A stretch of DNA of 64,000 bases, from assembly GCF_003628145.1 (NCBI RefSeq), contig NZ_RBZV01000013.1, positions 1 through 64,000 on the forward strand. Direction: 5' to 3'. This stretch comes from Trinickia fusca. GTDB lineage: Bacteria > Pseudomonadota > Gammaproteobacteria > Burkholderiales > Burkholderiaceae. The translations under genes were made by a program, and so were the position numbers. Below, piece after piece: positions 18,869 through 53,852 of this stretch. Numbering within the stretch: the first letter of the stretch is position 1; each line of letters begins with the position of its first letter. The notes below the pieces were generated by a model, which was not told where the DNA came from, made no database searches, and was given only the letters and a program-made list of their open reading frames with translations.

Positions 18869-20467
18869 TCAAGCCTTGAGCGGCTGAATCAACCCCTTGC
18901 ACGTCGCCACCTGCGGATCGCCGGCCGGCAGCTTGGCGCACGTTTGCTCGAACTGCTTGGCCACTTCCTTCACCGTCGCTTCGTGCGCGCCGCCCTTGTT
19001 CCATTGCGCGAGCCGCGCGACGACCCTCGCCAGCGCGCCGCGATTGGAACCATAAAACGCGTTGGGCGTCTGGCCGACCTGGGTCAGCAGACTCGTCGCG
19101 ATGCCTTGCACGCGTGCCGTGTCGTCCGGCGACAATTCGATCACACCGCCGATATAGGCGGCCCCCCAACGCAGCCGGGTGGCCGGGCCGCTCGACGCGT
19201 CATAAGCCTGCTTGTACCAGGCAAGTGCCCCCGCCTTGTCGCCGCGCGCCTTCGCATTCAACGCGAGCCTCGACATCAGGTAGTAAGGTGCAGGCGACCG
19301 AGCCAGCGATGCCTTCACCAACGCATCGGATTCGTCGATAAGCCCTGCGTCGGTCAGCAAGTCCGCGGCTTCGCTGACCACCGACTGCCGCTCATACACG
19401 TTGGTCGTCGCCTTGTCGGCGGCGGCCGTCTGCCGGCGAACTTCATCGATGAGCGGCTTGGCAAGCGGCGCCCCCTTCGGTCCATCGAGCCGCGCCAGAT
19501 CCACGCGGCCTTGCACGGCCGAGAGTCGATCCGTCGTCGACAGCGAGGCGTCCGTGGCCAGGCGCGCGAGCGCGTCGGTCCACGTCTTGGCCAAACGAGC
19601 ACGCTCCGGCGAGCCTTGGCCGCCCAGGTAAGCGGTAACGTCAGCCGGATTCGCGACGAGTATGTCGAAGTTGTCGCGACTCAGCTTCGCATCCTGCAAC
19701 ACCTGATGAAGAGCGGCCAGCGCACTGGCCTTGTCGAGCGTCCCGCTTTGCTTGGGATCGTTCGAGGCCGCCGACTCGATCGCCTTCAGTTCAAGACGCA
19801 ACGCCTCGGCGCCGGCATGGTCGGCCTTCGCGTGAGCGGACAGCGTCTGCAACGTCGTAGCGATCCGGTCGCCTGGCACAGGCAGATCGCCGTCGGTGTC
19901 CCACGAGTAGTCGGCCAGCATGCGCCACTCATCGCGCTTGAGCTGCGCGTTGCCCTGCAGCGCTGCCGCCAATGTCTGCTTGAATGGATGTGCCGCGTTC
20001 AAGCCCAACGACAACGCCTGCATGTATCGGTCGATATCCACTTCACCCGGCAGCCGCGTGATTTCCGTGCCGTCGGGCGTGAACAGGATCATCGTCGGAT
20101 AGCCGCGCACCTTGAATCGTTCGCCGAGCTTCTGCGCGCTCTCGGTGTCGCCGTCCAGATAAACCGGCACAAAAAACGAGGAGCGATCCTTGAACGCCTG
20201 ACGGCTGAAGATCGTCGCTTTCACCTGGTTGCAGGGCGGACACCAGACGGCCCCCCAGTACAACAGCAACGGCTTATTGGATGCCTTCGCCAACGCGAAC
20301 GCGGCATCCACGTCCCCCTGCTGCCACGCGATGCCGGGCGGCAAGTGGACGCCCGATGCGGCGGGCGTAGCCGGTGTAGCGGATGTTCCGGGTGCTGCGG
20401 CGGCAAAACCGGCCGCCGATACGGTGAGCAGCGTCGCCAGTGCGAGCATGCGAGACCGAGTCTTCAT
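18869..20467 (-). CDS. Periplasmic thioredoxin-like protein with helical repeat C-terminus (paralogue 1)
   Basis: 532 residues. A signal peptide (about residues 1-25) is followed by a thioredoxin fold with active site WCPPCNQ (Cys76 and Cys79) and cis-Pro motif GYPTMILF. Some 350 residues of helical, TPR-like sequence follow (for example ALAWYKQAYDASSG). CxxC thioredoxins of this kind reduce or isomerise disulfides in the periplasm. The start was chosen at the ATG opening the signal peptide. It lies 70 bases downstream of the TonB receptor gene on the same strand, so probably in one operon. Closely similar to the gene at 50762-52321. Confidence 0.75.
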   Translation of the reverse strand: MKTRSRMLALATLLTVSAAGFAAAAPGTSATPATPAASGVHLPPGIAWQQGDVDAAFALAKASNKPLLLYWGAVWCPPCNQVKATIFSRQAFKDRSSFFVPVYLDGDTESAQKLGERFKVRGYPTMILFTPDGTEITRLPGEVDIDRYMQALSLGLNAAHPFKQTLAAALQGNAQLKRDEWRMLADYSWDTDGDLPVPGDRIATTLQTLSAHAKADHAGAEALRLELKAIESAASNDPKQSGTLDKASALAALHQVLQDAKLSRDNFDILVANPADVTAYLGGQGSPERARLAKTWTDALARLATDASLSTTDRLSAVQGRVDLARLDGPKGAPLAKPLIDEVRRQTAAADKATTNVYERQSVVSEAADLLTDAGLIDESDALVKASLARSPAPYYLMSRLALNAKARGDKAGALAWYKQAYDASSGPATRLRWGAAYIGGVIELSPDDTARVQGIATSLLTQVGQTPNAFYGSNRGALARVVARLAQWNKGGAHEATVKEVAKQFEQTCAKLPAGDPQVATCKGLIQPLKA

Positions 20468-20537
20468 TATGTTTTGCTCTCGAGAGGTCCATTTATGTCT
20501 GAGCCGATGCCGATCCGTCAACGTCGGCCGTGTCGCT

Positions 20538-23375
20538 TCAGCGGAAGCGGTAATCGAACTCCAGCCACCACGTGCGTCCATACGGCATGTAATAGCCGAC
20601 ATCGTAGTATGGCCAGCCACCCGAGTCGTCGTGCTTGATCGTGTTCATCAAGTTATTGACGATCAGCGTCAACGACGCGTTCTTCGTGAACTCATGCGAC
20701 ACGCTCAGGTTCGCCAGCGCGGTCGGCGAGAGATACGCCGTCTGTTCCGCGTTCGGCACCTTGCCGTAGCGCTCGACCTGAAGCGTCGAGGTCCATTTGG
20801 GAATCGACCAGGTCAGACTCACCGCCAGCTTGTCGGGGAACTCGGGATTGCCCGTGGGATTCTGCAACGAGTGCAGCAAATCCTGCGTGGGACCATTCGC
20901 GAATTGCTGATACTTGTGGCTCAGGACTTTCGTGTAATTCAGCGTCCAGAGGAACGTGCCGTATCCATGCGTGCGCCAACGCCACTTCCCGCCCAGGTCG
21001 AAGCCGCTCGTGCGCTCCATGGCCGCGTTGATCGGATTGACCAGAAGCACGTTGATCGCGCCGGGGTCCAGCACCGCGGTGAGGGGATTACGCACCACGC
21101 GGCGCAGCGCATCCTGGCAATCGGGCGAGTTGATGTTGAGCTGCCCCGTGCGGCATGCCGACTCCGTTCGCAGCAGATTGTCCGGGTCGATCACCGTCAC
21201 GAGATTGTCGATGCGGATGTTGTAGTAGTCCGCCGAAAAATCGAGATCCGGTGTCGGCGAGAAGACGAAACCGTAACCCCACGAGGTGCCTTTCTCGGGC
21301 TTCAGGGTATCGTTGCCGGATTGAATGTAGTTGGCGCCCGGCGAGACGTTTGCAAACTCGCAGTTGCCGATCGGCTCGCCGGCCTGATTGCATCGGTAAT
21401 AGTCCGTCGTGCTCGGATAGTAGCCTTTCGTCTGCCCCTGAAAGAGGTAGTTCATGTCCGGCGCGCGAAAGCTCGTGCCATAGTAGCCGCGCGCCAGAAA
21501 GGTATTCACCGGCCGGAATTCGAGCCCCGCGTTGTAGGTGAACTGCGCTTCGTTTTTCCCGCTGAACGCGTAATCGTCGTAGCGGCCCGCCAGCGTGGCA
21601 TTGAGCTGCCGGATGATCGGCACGTCGAATTCCAGCGCGGCGGCGTAGCGTTTGCGCGAACCACTCGCGTGTTCTGCATCGCTCGAGTTGTAGTACGCGC
21701 CTTGATTGATCAACGGATCAGGCGAATTGCTGAAGCCCTGGGTGCCGAATTCGAGCGTCCCTGCCGCCTTGAGCATGCCGGCCGGCAGCTTGAACAGATC
21801 GCCGTTGGCGCTGAGGGTCACATTCTGCGTCCACGAGTTGTCCTGGCTCGCCGATTCGCCATACATCGACGCGAACTGCCCCGGTGTGAGCGGCGTGGCG
21901 AAGCGGTCCGGGTTCGGTGCGTAGATCGGCGTTCCGCCCGCCGTGAGGCCGAGTTGCGGCCCGAGATAATACGTATCGATGCTCGAGAGCAGACGCGGCG
22001 TGGTCTGACGGCTCTGGTAGCCCGACGCGTTATAAGCCGCTTCGTAGTTCCAGCTGCTGTTGCCGATCGCCCCGCGCACGCCGACCGTGATATTGCCGAA
22101 CGCGTCGTTCCATTCCTTGTTCCACGTCGACGCGCCGCCAATCTCCTCCGGCGCAAAGCGCTTCATCCACTGCTCGTTGGCGCCGGTCGTCTGATCGAAG
22201 AAGAAACCCGTCGTCGCCTTCGCGGAGGTCCAGCTCGGCCCGCGTGTGTTGTTCTGCGTCTGATCCCATGCCGCCGAGACCGAACCGAACAGCGTCGTCT
22301 TGTCGTTCAGGCGATATTCGAGGCCGCCGTAGAGGTTCTCGCTCGTGTTGTTCGTTTGCACGGTCCAGAAGTCGGGCTGTGCCTTGCCGCTACCGCAGTA
22401 GGAGCCAGCCTGCTTATTGACGGTCGAAACCGTCCCGCCGAATGCGCCGATGCCGGTGAGGGCACCGCAGGCGCCGGGTGCACCGAGGTATTGCCCCGAG
22501 TCGAGATTTTGGCGCGACCAGATGGTGGTCGGCACCTCGCCCTCGAGCGTCGACGACGACATGAAGTCGCGCTGGCTGGCCCAAATCGGATTGGTCTTGC
22601 TGAGCTCGATGCCGAACACCGTGCTCAGGTTGCCGATCTCTTTGCCGCCCGAAATCTGCACACGGGCATTGGCGCCGCCGCCGCGTTCGGTCGTGCCGCC
22701 CTTCACATTGAACTCGAGGCCGTCGATGTGCTTCTTCATGATGATGTTGACGACACCCGCGATGGCGTCCGAGCCGTAAACGGCCGACCCTGGCCCATTC
22801 AGGATCTCGATCCGATCGATCATCTCGGAAGGAATATTCGCGAGATTGACGAAGTTGACGTTCCCATCGTATGGAACCGGATAATCGGCGACGCGGCGCC
22901 CATCGACCAATACCAGCGTATGGTTCGGTCCCAACCCTCGCAAGCTGATCGTATTCGCGGCCGGCGTAAAGGTATTGCCAAAATCGGCCCCTTGCGTAAA
23001 GCCGGTATTCTGAGTCTGCTGAGCGATGGCATCGAAGACGTTTCTGTACCCCTTCGCCTCGATGTCCTTGGCGGTAATGACGGTAACGCTCGTCGCCCCT
23101 TCTTTTTCCGAGCGGGGAATACGGGAGCCCGTCACAACGACTTTTTCGAGGCCGATCGTCCCATTGTGGGCGAGCTCTTTCTCTTTGACCGCACCCGCAG
23201 CACTGGCGGCGCTCGGTGCGCTCGCGACTTCAGCAGGGGGCGGATTGACCGAACTTGCCCCGGAAGGAATGGCCTGGGCACAGACGGAATTCGCAGTGAT
23301 CGACGACAAGCCAACTAGACTTAGCAGTACGAATGCTTTTCTTATCGAAGGGATGTATTCCATCTCGCGGCTCAT
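20538..23375 (-). CDS. TonB-dependent outer-membrane receptor
   Basis: 945 residues with signal peptide (cleavage near SVCAQA) and a TonB-box-like LEKVVVTGSRI near residue 75. A plug domain follows, with ISLRGLGPNHTLVLVDGRR and ILNGPGSAVYGSDAIAGVVN. The long beta-barrel ends in YRFR, with aromatic terminal residues. It resembles the Oar/vitamin-B12-like large receptors found in Burkholderia and Xanthomonas. Such proteins import siderophores, cobalamin or carbohydrate/peptide substrates using energy from TonB-ExbBD. No siderophore genes are adjacent. The partner gene is a periplasmic thioredoxin-like protein. Substrate unknown. Confidence 0.92.
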   Translation of the reverse strand: MSREMEYIPSIRKAFVLLSLVGLSSITANSVCAQAIPSGASSVNPPPAEVASAPSAASAAGAVKEKELAHNGTIGLEKVVVTGSRIPRSEKEGATSVTVITAKDIEAKGYRNVFDAIAQQTQNTGFTQGADFGNTFTPAANTISLRGLGPNHTLVLVDGRRVADYPVPYDGNVNFVNLANIPSEMIDRIEILNGPGSAVYGSDAIAGVVNIIMKKHIDGLEFNVKGGTTERGGGANARVQISGGKEIGNLSTVFGIELSKTNPIWASQRDFMSSSTLEGEVPTTIWSRQNLDSGQYLGAPGACGALTGIGAFGGTVSTVNKQAGSYCGSGKAQPDFWTVQTNNTSENLYGGLEYRLNDKTTLFGSVSAAWDQTQNNTRGPSWTSAKATTGFFFDQTTGANEQWMKRFAPEEIGGASTWNKEWNDAFGNITVGVRGAIGNSSWNYEAAYNASGYQSRQTTPRLLSSIDTYYLGPQLGLTAGGTPIYAPNPDRFATPLTPGQFASMYGESASQDNSWTQNVTLSANGDLFKLPAGMLKAAGTLEFGTQGFSNSPDPLINQGAYYNSSDAEHASGSRKRYAAALEFDVPIIRQLNATLAGRYDDYAFSGKNEAQFTYNAGLEFRPVNTFLARGYYGTSFRAPDMNYLFQGQTKGYYPSTTDYYRCNQAGEPIGNCEFANVSPGANYIQSGNDTLKPEKGTSWGYGFVFSPTPDLDFSADYYNIRIDNLVTVIDPDNLLRTESACRTGQLNINSPDCQDALRRVVRNPLTAVLDPGAINVLLVNPINAAMERTSGFDLGGKWRWRTHGYGTFLWTLNYTKVLSHKYQQFANGPTQDLLHSLQNPTGNPEFPDKLAVSLTWSIPKWTSTLQVERYGKVPNAEQTAYLSPTALANLSVSHEFTKNASLTLIVNNLMNTIKHDDSGGWPYYDVGYYMPYGRTWWLEFDYRFR

Positions 23376-30820: not shown

Positions 30821-30849
30821 AAAAAAAAGCCCGCCTTGTGAGGCGGGCT
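30821..30849 (-). terminator. Terminator of the leftward receiver gene
   Basis: AGCCCGCCT (30829-30837) pairs with AGGCGGGCT (30841-30849). The eight A residues at 30821-30828 become a T-run on the minus strand, so it ends the transcript of the receiver gene at 30970-31422. Confidence 0.85.
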
Positions 30850-30969
30850 GAATCCATATCAGAGGAGACATGGAGGAGACGCTTCGGACTTTAGCAAACG
30901 ACTTGGTGCAACGCAACAAGACCAAGCAACAGCGTCCATCACGTTGCCTTCCCGCAACAAATATCACTG

Positions 30970-38893: not shown

Positions 38894-39974
38894 GATGCAA
38901 CTCCCGTTGAGTCCGCCTGCAGGCGGACAACGTTCAAGGGCGACGCGCACACACGCGGCAAACCATGCGCGCAGGCGGTCGTCTGTCTTGGGAGCGGGCT
39001 GGACTAGGCAGGCCCGTTGAGCCTGCAAAGGGAAGCGCGCTGACCCGGCAATGCGGGTCGGCGGCGGAAAGGAAACCGGTCGCTAACGCGCGATTGCGAA
39101 GTGGGTGCCGGCACGAACCGGCATCGAAGGTCGACTACAAGAAGGTGTGTCCAAGAAGGACTCCGTCGATTGAAACCAGCGCGGATTCTATGCCTGCCAC
39201 CTTTCATCAGACAAGAGGAAATTCGTCACTTCGATCCCGCCGCGAACTTGTGACCCATGCCACAACCCAATGCCGCGACGTTTTGCATACCGAAACGGTG
39301 CCCAGCGCGCACTTCGTGGAGGAAAGCGCCACAGCATCTCAAATTAGTGTTGACTCGTATTGAAGCGGGCAACTAGAATTCAGCCAATTCCACAAATGGG
39401 GCATATGCCTTGGACAGTTGCAGTAGTCGACCTTCGAACAGTTTTTCTGCCTGAGTCGCAAGACGTCCGAGCTGATTTCCCCATAGCCGCCGTCTCGCCA
39501 ATCAGGCAGACGGTGCGCGTCGCAGTATTTCTTCTGTAGCACCTCCCGCGCATCTCTTCGAATGGCCGCCGTTTAGACACGTGCGCCACCGTGCTCACGT
39601 TCGTCCGAATGGTCTGGCGTTGCGAGCCTTCGGGCTTGCGACGCCGCTCGTTCGCGCCGCTTTGCATGCCTTGCGTCCAGCACGCCCGGCAGGCTGGGCG
39701 ACGCGCGTCAAAACCCATTGGGCTGCGCTTTGTACGCGAATCCCGATGCGAAAACGAAAAGGAGCTCGCCGTGTCCGACCCCGACCCTAGTCGATCTCCG
39801 ACCTGGCGTGCCCGCACGCCACGGCCGGTCCACTTCGCCTGACACCAAGGCCGCATGCGTTCCTTTGCGTCACGCCGATCAATCGGCCTGATGCGAACCG
39901 AAACCGACGAGCCAAGGCCCCTCAGGCGCCCGCTCTCGGAATTTTTCGCTTCGCCAACGCACAAGGAAATCGCC
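38894..39974. other. Gene-poor kilobase upstream of the atypical NRAMP
   Basis: This stretch contains no confident gene. It holds short inverted repeats (GCAGGCC/GGCCTGC-like near 39010-39030), a decayed ORF at 39373-39501 and the leader of the NRAMP gene. The DNA from 39140 to 39560 is more AT-rich than the flanks. I looked for a manganese or magnesium riboswitch before the NRAMP gene and could not identify one. Confidence 0.4.
39373..39501 (-). pseudogene. Decayed C-terminal gene fragment
   Basis: On the minus strand, 42 codons before a TAG read with protein-like codon use (NQLGRLATQAEKLFEGRLL, then SKAYAPFVELAEF). The adjacent frame immediately upstream reads AREVLQKKYCDAHRLPDWRD and would join with a single frameshift near TATGGGGAA. 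An in-frame TGA (39502-39504) and a TAA upstream break the frames. This looks like the tail of a once longer gene, family not recognised. Confidence 0.35.
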
Positions 39975-40124
39975 ATGCAATTCGCTCTGCTCGTTTCATC
40001 GCTGCCCCACGTCGACGACGCTCGCGCGCAATACAACGTCATGGTCTCGCACCGCACGCATACGCCGCTTGCCGCTCGTCTCGTTGCCGCGCTGCGCACG
40101 GCCCTCGCCGCATTCACGCGCTGA
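39975..40124 (+). CDS. Possible small protein or leader peptide before the NRAMP gene
   Basis: A 49-residue ORF (MQFALLVSSLPHVDDARAQY..., ending AALRTALAAFTR) with a good AAGGAA RBS, ending 99 bases before the NRAMP start on the same strand. The C-terminal half forms a basic amphipathic helix. Its position resembles that of small metal-homeostasis peptides (E. coli MntS) or leader peptides. No family is recognised, so this is tentative. Confidence 0.4.
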   Translation: MQFALLVSSLPHVDDARAQYNVMVSHRTHTPLAARLVAALRTALAAFTR

Positions 40125-40223
40125 AGACGCCGAATCGATCACCCGTACGGCCTGTCGCGCTGCGCTTGCGCGCATAGCAGGCAGGTCGTACGAGGCATCA
40201 AGCATCACCAGGACAACTAGAAC

Positions 40224-41879
40224 ATGTCAACCACACCAGCAAACCTCGCCCAGGCACGCACCGCCGTGCTCGACGAAGCCCATGTCGGCGATATTCAAGG
40301 CGCCTTCGGCACGATCGCGCATCACGATACGGCGCCGCGCGGCAATTGGATGGCGCGCCTGCGCACGCTGCTCGCGATCCTCGGCCCCGGCCTCATCGTG
40401 ATGGTCGGCGACAACGATGCCGGCGCATTCGGCACCTACACGCAGGCCGGCCAGAACTACGGCACGACGCTCCTCTGGACGCTCGCGCTGCTCATTCCGG
40501 TGCTGTACGTCAATCAGGAAATGGTCCTGCGTCTCGGTGCGGTGACCGGTGTGGGCCACGCCCGCCTGATCTTCGAACGCTTCGGCAAGTTCTGGGGGGC
40601 GTTCAGCGTCATCGACCTGTTCCTGCTCAATGCGCTGACGATCGTCACCGAGTTCATCGGCATCACGTTCGCGCTCGACTACCTGGGCGTCTCGAAGGTG
40701 CTCGGTGTCTGCATCGCCGCCGTCCTGACGATGGCTGCGGTGAGTACCGGCAATTTCCGGCGTTTCGAGCGGTTCGCCATCGTGCTGTGTCTGCTGAGCC
40801 TGCTGCTCGTGCCGGTGCTCGTCTCGATCCACCCGCCCGTGCACGCGATCGCTCGCGACTTCTTCGTGCCGACCTGGCCGAAGAACTCGAAGCTCTCCGA
40901 CGTGATGCTGCTCGTGATCGGCATCGTCGGCACGACCGTCGCGCCGTGGCAGCTGTTCTTCCAGCAAAGCTATGTCGTCGACAAGCGCATCACGCCGCGC
41001 TTCATGAAGTACGAAAAGGCCGACCTGTGGATCGGCATCGTGTTCGTGATCATCGGCGGCGTCGCGATGATGGCGTTCTCGGCCGCGCTGTTCGCAGGCC
41101 GTCCGGAGTTCGGCAACTTCACCGATGCAGGCGGCATCATCGCCGGGCTGCACAAGTACGTGGGCCAGACGTCGGCGACGATCTTCGCCGTGGCGCTGCT
41201 CGATGCGTCGATCATCGGCGCGGCTGCGGTCTCGCTGTCGACGGCCTATGCGATCGGCGACGTGTTCCGCATCCGTCACTCGCTGCATCGCGGCGTGCTC
41301 GATGCAAAGGGCTTCTACCTCGTGTACTTCGCGATCATCGCGCTGGCCGCCGGACTCGTGCTGATGCCTGGCAGCCCGCTGGGCCTGTTGACCGAAGCCG
41401 TGCAGACGCTCGCGGGCGTGCTGCTGCCGAGCGCGACGGTATTCCTGCTCCTGCTGTGCAACGACAAGGCTGTGCTCGGGCCGTGGGTCAATTCGAAGCG
41501 GCTCAATCTGTTCACGGGCGCTGTGATCGCCGTGCTCGTCGTGCTGTCGATCATTCTGACCGCAGCCACGGTCTACCCGGACATCTCGGGCGCTGCCATC
41601 GTCAAGATCCTCGTAGGGGGCATCGCGGTGTTCGCGGCCGGCTATGCGGCCACCGAATTGCGCCGCCGCGCCACGCGCGAACACACCGCATCGAACGATG
41701 GTCTCGACGCGGCCAAGCGCGCCAAGCTGCGCACCCACTGGCGCATGCCGCCGCTCGAAGAGCTCGAAGCGCCGAATGTCACGCTGGCGACGCGCGTATG
41801 GATGGGGGCACTGCGCGGCTATCTCGTGATCGCAGTCGGACTCGTCATCGTCAAGGTCGTGCAGATGGCGATGCACTAA
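40224..41879 (+). CDS. NRAMP-family metal transporter, non-canonical binding site
   Basis: 551 residues with about 11 membrane segments, longer than typical MntH. TM1 carries VGDNDAGAFGTY (Asp63, Asn64, Asp65, Ala66, Gly67) where NRAMP transporters have DPGN. TM6 carries TTVAPWQLFF (Ala240, Pro241, Trp242, Gln243) where they have MPH. The missing Met and altered acid motif argue against simple Mn2+/Fe2+ selectivity. NRAMP-related proteins lacking the TM6 Met include magnesium transporters. It may therefore move another metal or substrate. A 99-base leader follows a 49-codon ORF. A terminator lies downstream. Confidence 0.85.
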   Translation: MSTTPANLAQARTAVLDEAHVGDIQGAFGTIAHHDTAPRGNWMARLRTLLAILGPGLIVMVGDNDAGAFGTYTQAGQNYGTTLLWTLALLIPVLYVNQEMVLRLGAVTGVGHARLIFERFGKFWGAFSVIDLFLLNALTIVTEFIGITFALDYLGVSKVLGVCIAAVLTMAAVSTGNFRRFERFAIVLCLLSLLLVPVLVSIHPPVHAIARDFFVPTWPKNSKLSDVMLLVIGIVGTTVAPWQLFFQQSYVVDKRITPRFMKYEKADLWIGIVFVIIGGVAMMAFSAALFAGRPEFGNFTDAGGIIAGLHKYVGQTSATIFAVALLDASIIGAAAVSLSTAYAIGDVFRIRHSLHRGVLDAKGFYLVYFAIIALAAGLVLMPGSPLGLLTEAVQTLAGVLLPSATVFLLLLCNDKAVLGPWVNSKRLNLFTGAVIAVLVVLSIILTAATVYPDISGAAIVKILVGGIAVFAAGYAATELRRRATREHTASNDGLDAAKRAKLRTHWRMPPLEELEAPNVTLATRVWMGALRGYLVIAVGLVIVKVVQMAMH

Positions 41880-50483: not shown

Positions 50484-50761
50484 GCCGCTGCGCCACGCAG
50501 GCTACTGATATCCCTGCTCACGACGCCGCTATTCGGCCCGTAATAAACTGCAATTAATGTCGGGTTGAAGCGGCACACACGGCTTTCTAGAATCAAAAAC
50601 CCGTGGCCGGCGATTTTCCGCATTTTCATTTCAGCGTATTCGCCGATACTGCTTCCCCGTCTTACCGAAGTTCGCGGCATTTGGCATTCGACTTTTGCCG
50701 CTCACGTCGCTCGCAGCGTCGAATTCGCATTCCGCATTCATCTTCGAAAAAAAGGGAAGTC

Positions 50762-52321
50762 ATGAATTCTCGTCTCGTCGGTATGATCGGTGCCCTCGCG
50801 CTCACCGCTTCGGTGTGGGCATCGCCGGCTCCTCCCGCACCCGCCCATGCGCTGCCGCCGGGCATCGCATGGCAGCAGGGCGATGTCGATGCCGCATTCG
50901 CGTTGGCCAAGACGCAGCACAAACCGCTGTTTCTATACTGGGGCGCAGTGTGGTGCCCCCCTTGCAACCAGGTGAAGGCGACGATCTTCAATCAGCAGGC
51001 GTTCAAGGAGCGAGCGTCGTTTTTCATCCCCGTTTATTTGGATGGCGATAGCGAAAGCGCGCAGAAGCTCAGCGAGAGGTTCAAGGTGCGCGGCTATCCG
51101 ACCATGATTCTATTTAGCCCCGACGGCACCGAAATCACCCGGCTGCCCGGCGAAGTCGATGCCGCGCGCTATTTGCAGGCGCTTTCACTGGGCATGAATG
51201 CCGCGCATCCGGTCAAGCAGACGCTTGCCGCAGCCTTGAAGGATGGCGCGCATCTGGGACACGACGAATGGCGCATGCTGGCCGATTACGCGTGGGACCC
51301 AGCCGAGCCGCAGCCCGTCGCCAACGAGAAAGTCGCACGCACACTGCAAACGCTGGCTCGCCATGCGCGCGCCGACCATGCCGACGACGAGGCGCTGCGC
51401 TTCGAACTCAAGGCCGTCGCGGCCGCGGCAACCGAACCGCGCAGCGAGCCGATCGACAAGGCCGCCGCGACCCAGGCTGTCGAAGCCGTACTCGCCGATC
51501 GTGGCCGCGCCCGGGCGAACTTCGACGTGCTGGTCGCCTATGCGAACGACATCGTCCGCTACCTGAGCGCGGCGGATACCCCGGAGCGCCGCCGTCTCGT
51601 CGATGCCAGCGATAGCGCGCTGACCGCCCTCGCCGCCGACGCGACGCTGTCGACGACCGATCGCCTGAGCGCGCTGCACGGCCGCGTGACGCTGGCGCGT
51701 CTCGATGCGCCGAAAGGCGCGCCGCTGCCGCCCGCGCTGCTCAATGCCGTGCGCGAGCAGGCCACGGTCGCGAACACGGTCACGACGAACGGCTACGAGC
51801 GCTTGGCAGTCGTCGACGCAGCGGCCGATGCGCTGACCGCCGCGGGTCTCATCAACGACTCCGACCGTATGCTGCACGCGGAGCTCACACGCTCGGTCAC
51901 GCCCTACTACGTGATGTCGGAACTCGGAGCCAACGCCAAGGCGCGCGGCGACTCGGACTCGGCGCTCGACTGGTACAAGCGTGCCTATGACGCATCGGTC
52001 GGGCCGGCCACACGGCTGCGCTGGAGCGTCAGCTACTTCAGCAACGTCGTCGAGCTCGCGCCACAGGACGAGGCACGCGTGCAGCAGGCGGCCAGCGCGG
52101 TGCTGACCGAGGTCAGCGCCACGCACGATGCGTTCTATGGCCGCAATCGCGCCAACATCGAGCGGCTCGTGACGCGCCTGAGCGACTGGAACCGTGGCAA
52201 GCAGCATGACGCGGCCGTCAAGCATGTGCTCGCGCAACTCGACGGTGTCTGCGCGAAGCTGCCCGCCGACGATCCGCAGCGCGCAACCTGCCACACGCTG
52301 GCCAAGCCTACCAGCGCCTAG
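50762..52321 (+). CDS. Periplasmic thioredoxin-like protein with helical repeat C-terminus (paralogue 2)
   Basis: 519 residues, clearly related to the gene at 18869-20467. Both share PPGIAWQQGDVDAAFALAK, WGAVWCPPCNQVKATIF and GYPTMILF, and the helical-repeat tail (here ALDWYKRAYDASVGPATRLR). Active site Cys65 and Cys68. A signal peptide ends near VWASPAP. The ATG at 50762 follows AAAGGGAAG. Here no TonB receptor lies beside it. The gene stands between the AraC regulator and mntH and is probably a single transcript. Confidence 0.75.
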   Translation: MNSRLVGMIGALALTASVWASPAPPAPAHALPPGIAWQQGDVDAAFALAKTQHKPLFLYWGAVWCPPCNQVKATIFNQQAFKERASFFIPVYLDGDSESAQKLSERFKVRGYPTMILFSPDGTEITRLPGEVDAARYLQALSLGMNAAHPVKQTLAAALKDGAHLGHDEWRMLADYAWDPAEPQPVANEKVARTLQTLARHARADHADDEALRFELKAVAAAATEPRSEPIDKAAATQAVEAVLADRGRARANFDVLVAYANDIVRYLSAADTPERRRLVDASDSALTALAADATLSTTDRLSALHGRVTLARLDAPKGAPLPPALLNAVREQATVANTVTTNGYERLAVVDAAADALTAAGLINDSDRMLHAELTRSVTPYYVMSELGANAKARGDSDSALDWYKRAYDASVGPATRLRWSVSYFSNVVELAPQDEARVQQAASAVLTEVSATHDAFYGRNRANIERLVTRLSDWNRGKQHDAAVKHVLAQLDGVCAKLPADDPQRATCHTLAKPTSA

Positions 52322-52514: not shown

Positions 52515-53852
52515 ATGACGACCGCGCAAATGCAGTTAGGGATGAGCGAGCGCACGACACGGGCGATCGGCGATGCGCTCGCGGGAAACGGTAGCGGTAG
52601 CAGTGCGTTCGCGGGTCGCGGTGCCAGCCTGCGCTCGGCGTTGCTGTTCGCGGGCCCTGCGGTCGTCGCATCGATCGCGTACATGGACCCCGGCAATTTC
52701 GCCACCAATCTGCAAGCGGGATCGAAGTACGGCTATGCGTTGCTCTGGGTCGTCGTCGCAGCCAATGCGATCGCGATGCTGTTTCAGGCGCTGTCGGCCA
52801 AGCTCGGTATCGTCACGCGGCGCAATCTCGCCGAATTGAGCCGCGAGCAGTTTCCGGCGCCGGTCGTCTACGCCATGTGGGCCGTCAGCGAAGTGGCTGC
52901 GATGGCGACCGATCTCGCCGAATTCCTCGGCGGCGCGCTCGCCCTGGCGCTGCTGTTCCACTTGCCGCTGCTCGCAGGCATGGTGATCACCGGCCTCGTC
53001 ACCTATGCGATTCTGATCGCCGAAAGGCGCGGCTTTCGGCCACTCGAGCTCATCATCGGCGGGCTCATCGCAGTCATTGCGCTCGCGTATGTCGCCGAGC
53101 TTGCGATCGTCGACGTCTCGTGGAGCGACGTCACTTACGGCAGCCTCGTGCCGACGCTGCCCGATTCGGGCGCGCTGACCGTGGCCGTCGGCATACTCGG
53201 CGCAACGGTCATGCCGCATGCGATCTATCTGCACTCGGGGCTCACGCAACATCGCTCGCCGGCGCGCAACGACGAGGGCCGCCGCAAGCTGCTGCGCTTC
53301 TCGAACATCGAGGTCGTGGTCGCGCTCTCACTCGCCGGTCTCGTGAACATGGCGATGATCGTGATGGCCAGCGGCGCGTTTCACCCTGCACATGCCGACA
53401 TCGCCACGATCGACACTGCCTATCGCAGCTTGACGCCGTTGCTCGGCGCGGGGGCGGCCGGCATCTTCCTGATCTCGCTGTTGGCGTCGGGCATCTCGAG
53501 CTCCGTCGTCGGCACGATGGCCGGGCAGATGGTGATGCAAGGGTTCGTCGGTTTCCGAATCCCGGTCGGCGTGCGGCGCCTCGCGACGATGGTGCCGGCG
53601 TTCATCGTCGTCGCGCTCGGCGTCAATGCCAACGATGCGCTCGTCTACAGCCAGATCGTGCTGAGCTTCGCGCTGCCCGTGCCGATGATCGCGCTCGTCA
53701 TATTCACATGCCGACGCGACATCATGGGACCGTTCGTCAACGGCCCCCTCATGAGCGTCGCGGCAATCGGCGGCACGGTAGCCGTCGTCGTGCTCAACAC
53801 GGTATTGCTGCTGCAAAGCTTCGGCGTCAATGTGCCAGGCTTTGGAGCCTGA
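52515..53852 (+). CDS. mntH: Canonical NRAMP manganese/iron transporter
   Basis: 445 residues. It imports Mn2+ (and Fe2+) with protons across the inner membrane. TM1 has the invariant DPGN (58-61, in AYMDPGNFATNLQAG) and TM6 the MPH motif (233-235, GATVMPHAIYLHSG). About 11 membrane segments. The ATG at 52515 follows AAGGGGGACGCG. A nearby GAACGTTCAATTGTTC in the upstream region may be regulatory. Contrast with the divergent NRAMP at 40224. Confidence 0.93.
   Translation: MTTAQMQLGMSERTTRAIGDALAGNGSGSSAFAGRGASLRSALLFAGPAVVASIAYMDPGNFATNLQAGSKYGYALLWVVVAANAIAMLFQALSAKLGIVTRRNLAELSREQFPAPVVYAMWAVSEVAAMATDLAEFLGGALALALLFHLPLLAGMVITGLVTYAILIAERRGFRPLELIIGGLIAVIALAYVAELAIVDVSWSDVTYGSLVPTLPDSGALTVAVGILGATVMPHAIYLHSGLTQHRSPARNDEGRRKLLRFSNIEVVVALSLAGLVNMAMIVMASGAFHPAHADIATIDTAYRSLTPLLGAGAAGIFLISLLASGISSSVVGTMAGQMVMQGFVGFRIPVGVRRLATMVPAFIVVALGVNANDALVYSQIVLSFALPVPMIALVIFTCRRDIMGPFVNGPLMSVAAIGGTVAVVVLNTVLLLQSFGVNVPGFGA

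Follow-up and report, generated by a model that had tools for sequence, protein, structure and literature searches.

A conserved RNA element and two small open reading frames form the leader of an NRMT-type NRAMP gene in Trinickia fusca, a candidate Mg2+-responsive locus

In the leader of mgtA in Escherichia coli and Salmonella, the short open reading frame (ORF) mgtL opens on alternating acidic and proline residues, and the EPDP sequence of its product is described as destabilizing ribosomes at low Mg2+, which permits mgtA transcription (PMC11282234). The same source describes an action of EttA on early acidic repeats, including DxE, together with pausing at DxE, and the control exerted by mgtL and corL in E. 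coli is set out in PMC11552253, according to which it is still debated whether the RNA or translation of the leader senses Mg2+ at mgtA. An M-box (ykoK) RNA has been described before NrmT genes (PMC4072509), and in Mycobacterium tuberculosis an M-box is accompanied by a conserved small upstream ORF (uORF) and Rho control (PMC12810186). Among the transporters themselves, the signature DxxG-TxxA and the replacement of a His by Trp have been described for EleNRMT, an NRAMP-related magnesium transporter (NRMT) (PMC8806188). Here, a stretch of 64,000 nucleotides from the 6.1 Mb genome of Trinickia fusca (the window; contig NZ_RBZV01000013.1, G000:C5:1-64000) is found to carry an NRMT-type NRAMP gene (40224-41879, plus strand) behind a leader made up of a promoter-like site, a conserved RNA element, a MgtL-like ORF (uORF1), and an ORF of 49 codons (smORF2). 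We favour, as reasonably probable, the reading that the gene serves Mg2+ uptake in the manner of the NRMTs and is controlled by a composite leader responsive to low Mg2+; what is new here is the leader, the transporter being one more protein of a type already described.

The leader begins with a sigma-70-like promoter (TTGACT-18-TAGAAT, 10/12 matches) at 39350-39379 on the plus strand, the sole promoter-like site in 39250-40300, where shuffled sequences yield a mean of 0.2, and TTGAC and TARAAT-like boxes are seen by eye at the same place in many relatives. The -10 box of the window, TAGAAT, fits the TAnAAT described for Burkholderia cenocepacia promoters (PMC4603805). Downstream lies the conserved RNA element (39389-39517, plus strand), detected at 132.4 bits by R1, a covariance model built from 72 sequences. 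A motif scan placed this block of ~130 nt immediately downstream of the promoter in 106 of 118 smORF2 leaders, missing L030, L173, and L174, all three of which R1 detects; four regular-expression matches judged not to be the RNA element were removed before alignment, and L167 was omitted from the RNA alignment A2, as were L166 and L167 from the extended alignment. The relatives behind most counts are 41 close NRAMP loci (L005-L043, L052, and L072) among the top 80 taken from at least 584 relatives, all from Proteobacteria except one Streptomyces going by their titles, and the counts over 41 loci therefore describe close relatives. R1 matches at every one of the 41, with all 44 matches on the NRAMP strand. 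Applied to another 41 loci, of which 39 come from other taxa and two are L243 and L258, it finds the element upstream of NRAMP and on the same strand in eight, nearly all belonging to other families, namely Chromobacterium, Paludibacterium (two), Aquitalea (two), Polaromonas (two), and Pseudomonas (E values from 5.5e-13 to 2.9e-4); these R1 scores are not circular, whereas those of a second model, R2, are, since the eight sequences are inside R2. An RNA match at E <= 0.001 is present in 97 of the 249 genomes of the family. A survey of 274 genomes of the class with R2 matched the source genome alone; its filters were strict and no more than 12 candidates per genome were scored, which may lead to an undercount of how widely the RNA is spread.

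The window RNA has a folding energy of -47.9 kcal/mol (z -3.0), and its covariation across relatives is modest. In A2, the two modelled helices together hold 14 double-changed cells against 3.5 in shuffled alignments, 13 of them in a single pair of the 3' hairpin, and the number of double-changed pairs, two, is reached by 20/500 shuffles. A3, a wider alignment fitted to the model, holds 12 double-changed cells in five pairs against 1.8 after shuffling (0/500 shuffles), three of the five pairs and 8/12 cells lying within the 3' hairpin; related rows inflate all such counts. The CGUC that forms the 5' arm of this hairpin can alternatively pair with an upstream GACG (97.9% of cells paired, three double-changed), which hints that the leader RNA may take two exclusive folds, the control for this pairing being weak in that 273/500 shuffles reach its pair count and 5/500 its cell count, and in that sliding the partner by two columns yields as many double-changed cells. 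No helix is supported in the most conserved core (UUGGACA..GCAGUAGUCGA), and the RNAalifold consensus is weak, with a covariation term of -0.22. These figures bear directly on the alternative that the structured RNA alone does the sensing, as a Mg2+ riboswitch or one for some other ligand, into whose leader the ORFs were later inserted as a tuning or delay module. That alternative draws on the constancy of an RNA that begins at the promoter, is present at all close loci including the four without ORFs, stands at L314, L316-L319, and L324 with no short ORF found, and recurs before NRAMP genes in other families, and it draws also on the paired changes of A3 and the two possible partners of CGUC, but it must contend with the helix-free core and weak consensus, with shuffles that equal the pair counts of A2 and of the alternative pairing, and with the fitting and row relatedness behind A3. 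We regard it as a serious contender that we nonetheless lean slightly against. The helix-free core would also suit a conserved 5' stretch that serves as a DNA operator or as the source of a trans-acting small RNA instead of a cis-acting one, and 5' untranslated regions of B. cenocepacia are known to be processed into short stable RNAs (PMC5688073); such a role is nevertheless rather improbable, given the paired changes of the 3' hairpin in several lineages and the uniform strand of the matches at the close loci.

Known riboswitches are ruled out by Rfam, in which no cis-regulatory family reaches the gathering threshold anywhere in the window, neither the M-box nor the Mg-sensor (mgtA) riboswitch among them, and in which a search of 39300-40250 at E values up to 10 returns radC alone (16 bits, E 1.5, opposite strand). 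A reading frame spanning the RNA element was likewise rejected, since by eye it is not kept across relatives, as was a mid hairpin CUGCC/GGCAG, which is missing in the rows of Burkholderia sensu stricto (by eye, uncounted). On the minus strand of the window, 39054-39174 gives a weak second RNA match (13.3 bits, E 0.007), which a TAGAAT precedes.

uORF1 (39771-39842, plus strand) is a MgtL-like leader ORF of 23 codons (GTG start, MSDPDPSRSPTWRARTPRPVHFA) with an AAGGAG ribosome site; it begins MSDPDP and ends 132 nt upstream of smORF2. In aligned leaders its start lies ~130-220 nt before smORF2 behind a good ribosome site, and relatives show the forms MPDPEP..., MNDSDSCPLCP..., and MPDSDSYP.... 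The strict motif together with a ribosome site is present in 97 of 110 unique smORF2 leaders against 1/2200 Markov-shuffled leaders, and the strict motif occurs in 59 of 7012 windows of 300 nt across all loci, true sites counted. This set of 110 excludes smORF2 matches below 38 bits, among them the MgtA locus L184, the MipA loci L182 and L187, and a group of NRAMP loci (L013, L014, L019, L029, and others), and it includes L179, whose match of 38.9 bits may be chance. A DNA pattern for the DPxP form, run over 11 genomes of the genus, gave seven matches against none for its control, all seven ~200 nt before smORF2, and a pattern for the DSDS form gave 53 matches in the 249 family genomes, again with a control of 0; 43 of the 53 precede a smORF2 match (two of them weak) and ten do not, nine of these ten having been inspected. 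Rare codons occupy positions 4, 6, 7, and 9 of uORF1, with AGT or CCT at 4 and 6, TGT at 7, and at 9 either TTA (46/47 Leu) or ATA (20/20 Ile), against a background in the NRAMP genes of the loci of 0.3% of Leu codons for TTA and 0.9% of Ile codons for ATA.

The sequence features of a MgtL-type ORF, namely a short ORF, a ribosome site, an alternating acidic/Pro start, and a place in the leader of a presumed Mg2+ gene, are found in uORF1, with Ser standing for Pro in the DSDS majority. The kinship to MgtL is argued by analogy, from motif and position. Other acidic short ORFs, which are possibly parallel leader peptides, precede NRMT-type NRAMP genes at four Bradyrhizobium loci (L057, L061, L069, and L083) and at L055 and L084, the forms in those taxa being MDEGPS[RC]PVA.., MDEDPSSWPV.., and MPSDSDRCPS...

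The second ORF, smORF2 (39975-40124, plus strand), has its 49 codons preceded by AAGGAA ahead of the ATG, as the first-pass annotation had noted in describing a strong ribosome binding site, and tblastn and hidden Markov model searches find it before most close NRAMP genes. A homologue is present at 37 of the 41 close loci (four weakly, at 23-31 bits), and a profile of 26 peptides (A1) has matches in 69 of 249 family genomes at E <= 0.01, the last few weak. The consensus is MNFGLLLSQLPHVxESRxHYDAMLxL..., with M1, L6, P11, and R17 invariant across the 26 rows. The ratio of nonsynonymous to synonymous changes (pN/pS) over 645 pairs is 0.50 in the reading frame and rises to 0.93 and 1.85 in the two shifted ones, which, together with the family-wide matches, rejects a chance ORF. 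The last 16 residues vary in sequence and retain their amphipathic moment (mean 0.54 against 0.291 shuffled, the maximum of 200 shuffles being 0.334; n = 104), and net charge past residue 26 is positive in 110/110, from +1 to +8. In sequence terms, smORF2 belongs to a conserved family that is under selection at the protein level and ends in a cationic amphipathic C-terminal stretch. Because amphipathic moment, positive charge, and in-frame constraint are all retained, a working peptide is indicated and not just a ribosome-stalling device, and the product looks more like a small membrane-binding protein than a leader peptide. The annotation's suggestion of a leader peptide holds insofar as this conserved ORF is part of the leader; the MgtL-like element, though, is the shorter ORF upstream, which the annotation had missed.

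That annotation had also proposed an MntS-like peptide. MntS of E. coli is a small protein of ~40-50 residues tied to metal uptake, like smORF2 in size, with MntR control and inhibition of MntP; searches of Pfam and NCBIfam give smORF2 no match, and kinship to MntS, itself not among the sequences compared, finds no support; other copies of smORF2 stand before MgtA and MgtC, whereas the two DPGN-type genes of the genome have no leader RNA. In function, MgtR and MgtS as well as MntS are the natural likenesses for a small membrane protein that acts on transporters, and smORF2 may be just such a regulatory protein, its place in the leader reflecting mere co-expression. The charged amphipathic end and the in-frame constraint agree with that, as do copies without a partner gene, such as the one at C1:793660 of the same genome, and the copies at L157, L159, L169, and L176 that have neither RNA nor uORF1. 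Across the 41 close loci, however, smORF2 is always accompanied by the RNA and in all but two cases by strict uORF1, and it precedes unrelated transporters, so that no single protein partner fits. We judge this role quite plausible, if somewhat less than probable. The solitary copy in question (L096, G000:C1:793443-793797, plus strand) has RNA and smORF2, no uORF1, and no partner, the next gene being a convergent acetyltransferase-like ORF, and is possibly a trans-acting small gene or a relic.

The three leader parts occur together in a regular way. Strict uORF1 and smORF2 are both found at 35/41 close loci, smORF2 without strict uORF1 at two (one with the variant MPGSDSYP), and neither ORF at four that retain RNA and transporter, and the distance from RNA to gene is 554-729 nt with smORF2 and 181-261 nt without it. 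Taken with the presence of the RNA at all 41 loci, these counts and gaps indicate that the RNA is constant while the ORFs come and go together, like an inserted pair.

The genes behind the leader extend beyond transporters of the NRAMP kind. After the 110 unique smORF2 copies stand NRMT-type NRAMP genes in 91 cases, ATP-binding cassette (ABC) transporter genes in five, MgtC in three, TonB in two, MgtA in one, Anabaena sensory rhodopsin transducer (ASRT) followed by another NRAMP in one, and no recognised gene in seven. MgtA at L168 and L184 is identified by TIGR01524 at 1278 and 1275 bits (cut-off 611), L184 lying outside the set of 110 through its weak smORF2. R1 detects the RNA in 13 of the 22 loci that have another or no partner gene, and these comprise both MgtA loci, MgtC at L095 and L166, ABC at L103, L158, L160, and L178, ASRT at L097, and the partnerless L096, L173, L174, and L189; wherever RNA and smORF2 precede MgtA, MgtC, or ABC genes, they come with strict uORF1 or with a near variant of it. 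R1 finds no RNA at L157 (ABC), L159 (MgtC), L169 and L176 (TonB), L182 and L187 (MipA), L109, L179, and L188, and the TonB and MipA copies show neither an RNA match nor a uORF1. The RNA also occurs without smORF2 before MgtC (PF02308) at L313, L314, L316, and L318, and by eye at L317, before an ABC permease at L324 and L325, and before NRAMP at L319.

The source genome holds four RNA sites, at the window locus, before MgtC on C34, at the partnerless smORF2 on C1, and on C4 (62.6 bits), and R1 finds no copy at its DPGN-type mntH genes. The MgtC locus (L095, G000:C34:95709-96390, minus strand) repeats the whole leader, with RNA, uORF1 (MPDPEPGRSW), and smORF2. The signal is read as Mg2+ mainly because MgtA and MgtC are Mg2+ genes.

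Several of these associations are worth recording in their own right. The weaker match on C4 (L308, G000:C4:90270-90397, minus strand) involves by eye mainly the 3' part of the RNA with a different 5' part, and this locus, like the weaker matches L309-L312, lies before a conserved 123-residue protein (MFE..K.YTRE.IHT.CGG; read in L308, L309, and L311), perhaps as a shared platform with another sensor part. At L097:4225-6341 the smORF2 cassette precedes the ASRT gene (PF07100) and an NRAMP with ADNDPGG. An ABC transporter with a double permease (PF00528) and an ATPase carrying PF09821 (AAA_assoc_C) is found repeatedly near the leader or its parts (L103, L157, L158, L160, L178, L186, L235-L238, L240, L241, L320, L321, L324, and L325). 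We know of no tie of this transporter to magnesium, and predict that it is Mg2+-related.

The transporter itself, of 551 residues, has a single Pfam domain, Nramp (PF01566, E 8e-80), and fails the canonical MntH model of NCBIfam (NF001923, 115 bits, cut-off 430) while barely passing the broad model NF037982 Nramp_1 (51.7 against a cut-off of 50). In an alignment of 62 sequences, its site residues in transmembrane helix 1 (TM1) are D65-A-G-A68 (40416-40427, plus strand) in the place of DPGN, and those in TM6 are T237-T-V-A240-P-W242 (40932-40949, plus strand) in the place of ATVMPH. The earlier statement that DPGN becomes DNDAG is correct as text, the DNDAGA stretch starting at residue 63, but is two residues off as an alignment, since DPGN aligns with DAGA; the Asp is retained as D65, the second D of DNDAG, and the Asn becomes Ala68. 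In TM6 (TTVAPW from residue 237) Thr237 replaces the A of ATVM, Ala240 the Met, as had been proposed, and Trp242 the first His. Compared position by position, the site reads D/A/T/A/W in this transporter, D/G/T/A/W in EleNRMT (NDAGG and TTIAPW in the alignment), and D/N/A/M/H in MntH, and the form DxxA-TxxA is one position, Ala for Gly, off the published NRMT signature. Its closest described counterparts are EleNRMT and CabNRMT; with EleNRMT, the one compared here and placed in the tree, the transporter shares the NDAG of TM1 and the GTT(I/V)APW of TM6, with Asp kept, Met changed to Ala, and His to Trp, and it differs in having DxxA for DxxG and ~100 extra C-terminal residues beyond the aligned part.

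The nearest solved relative is EleNRMT (7qia, 165.7 bits, the runner-up at 74.8), and in a maximum-likelihood tree of 61 rows the 32 transporter-like proteins form one clade (support 100/99) that joins EleNRMT in a clade of 38 rows (99/94), with 15 DPGN proteins separate (100/99). The phylogeny called for by the annotation places the protein beside EleNRMT and away from the MntH at 52515-53852. A canonical Mn2+ transporter is ruled out by site residues and tree. Four NRAMP homologues occur in the genome, this one included, and two of them have DPGN/MPH (52515-53852 and one on C14); the former is the MntH (DPGN and ATVMPH) correctly placed by the annotation at ~12 kb, the distance being 12.3 kb from start to start. 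A further homologue (L004, G000:C6:82919-83935, minus strand) has a distinct site type, DAGN and NPW. A substrate other than Mn2+, perhaps Mg2+, as the annotation had proposed, is supported by the binding site, the tree, and the same leader before MgtA and MgtC elsewhere.

EleNRMT is described as transporting Mn2+ besides Mg2+ (PMC8806188), and TonB-ExbB, MipA, and an RND system stand behind some smORF2 copies, in line with a broad divalent or Mn2+/Fe2+ importer whose leader answers another metal or an envelope or iron stress. The soft Met ligand and the first His are missing from the site, however, MgtA and MgtC stand behind full copies of the leader whereas the TonB and MipA copies are without RNA and uORF1, and the two DPGN genes of the genome are without a copy of the RNA; an importer of this kind is therefore unlikely.

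Under the favoured reading of a composite Mg2+-sensing leader, transcription would start just past 39379 and the first part of the mRNA would fold into the conserved RNA, after which a ribosome would translate uORF1. When Mg2+ is scarce, the Asp-Pro-Asp-Pro start of uORF1 might stall or dissociate the ribosome, by analogy with the EPDP of MgtL, and in many relatives an Asp-Ser start in rare codons would play the same part. Weakened translation of uORF1 would leave the leader RNA free to fold and transcription free to proceed, the downstream mRNA would escape premature termination that is probably Rho-dependent, and smORF2 and the transporter would then be made. The leader RNA may add a direct reading of Mg2+, and the smORF2 protein, as a cationic amphipathic helix, would probably act at the membrane on Mg2+ homeostasis. 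A bolder version, which we advance only tentatively, would make the 129-nt RNA a Mg2+-sensing riboswitch of a new class, in series with the MgtL-like ORF and a regulatory small ORF, so that the leader would read Mg2+ twice, first through folding and then through ribosome stability, with a regulon of NRMT, MgtA, MgtC, and the ABC transporter.

A number of observations weigh against the composite Mg2+ leader. The ORFs are not essential, as the four close loci with RNA and transporter alone indicate, and smORF2 can stand alone, since L159 (MgtC) and L157 (ABC) have it with neither an RNA match nor uORF1. In uORF1 no coding constraint is seen past codon 8 (pN/pS 0.92), the ratio being 0.69 over the whole ORF against 0.90 and 0.77 in the shifted frames and 0.47 for codons 2-8 against 0.55 in one shifted frame, and its likeness to EPDP is in part an analogy, most copies beginning DSDS and not DPDP. 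A search of the leader for an intrinsic terminator found none, which makes Rho or translation control more likely, and the excess of C over G in the leader is only moderate. MgtA or MgtC lies behind 4/110 smORF2 copies only. At L322:632-2600 the RNA, a uORF1-like MPDPDSCTSCC.., and a smORF2-like ORF precede an RND efflux-type system (PF00873, HlyD), and other copies of smORF2 precede TonB and, weakly, MipA, which are not Mg2+ genes; these cases, the RND system above all and TonB and MipA less so, argue against a regulon devoted to Mg2+ alone. As to the transporter, the branches to EleNRMT are long and the tree program issued a warning, and NRMT site residues put into EcoDMT are described as giving no Mg2+ transport (PMC8806188).

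Set beside the described systems, uORF1 shares with mgtL its shortness, its alternating acid/Pro start (DPDP or DPEP for EPDP), and its place before a presumed Mg2+ gene, but differs in the DSDS start of most copies, the rare codons, the second conserved small ORF that follows, the conserved RNA that precedes, and the absence of an Rfam match. The M-box before NrmT genes resembles the present RNA in standing in an NRMT leader, whereas the Rfam search of this window found none, and the M. tuberculosis leader likewise joins an RNA to a small uORF in a Mg2+-related leader, but its RNA is an M-box in another phylum. Among Mg2+-responsive leaders, the present one is a combination of an RNA beyond Rfam 15, a MgtL-like ORF, and a family of small proteins that neither Pfam nor NCBIfam matches. 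No description of such a composite leader was found in the searches made of openly licensed papers, where nothing on an mgtA leader peptide or mgtL in Burkholderia was found either, and the main text of PMC6429828, on the discovery of motifs and uORFs, mentions neither Burkholderia nor magnesium nor mgtA.

If the proposal is right, the relatives of Burkholderia, in which cytoplasmic Mg2+ sensing has to our knowledge been little studied, gain a defined and testable Mg2+ leader with an RNA absent from Rfam 15, and MgtL-like leader ORFs gain another, apparently unrelated, case. It would also define a family of small proteins that has no entry in Pfam or NCBIfam, give a predicted substrate to a proteobacterial branch of NRAMP, and mark the ABC transporter, through the targets of the leader, as a Mg2+-related system. 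As close relatives have the RNA both with and without the ORFs, sensing by RNA and by ORF would be separable here.

Elsewhere in the window, a Betaproteobacteria toxic small RNA (RF02278, 73 bits) lies at 30821-30881 on the minus strand. Two similar thioredoxin-like proteins of ~570-580 residues are encoded at 18869-20620 (minus strand) and 50603-52321 (plus strand); by eye they have GIAWQQGDVDAAFALAK...WCPPCNQVKATIF in common, and the copy at 50603-52321 stands directly before MntH.

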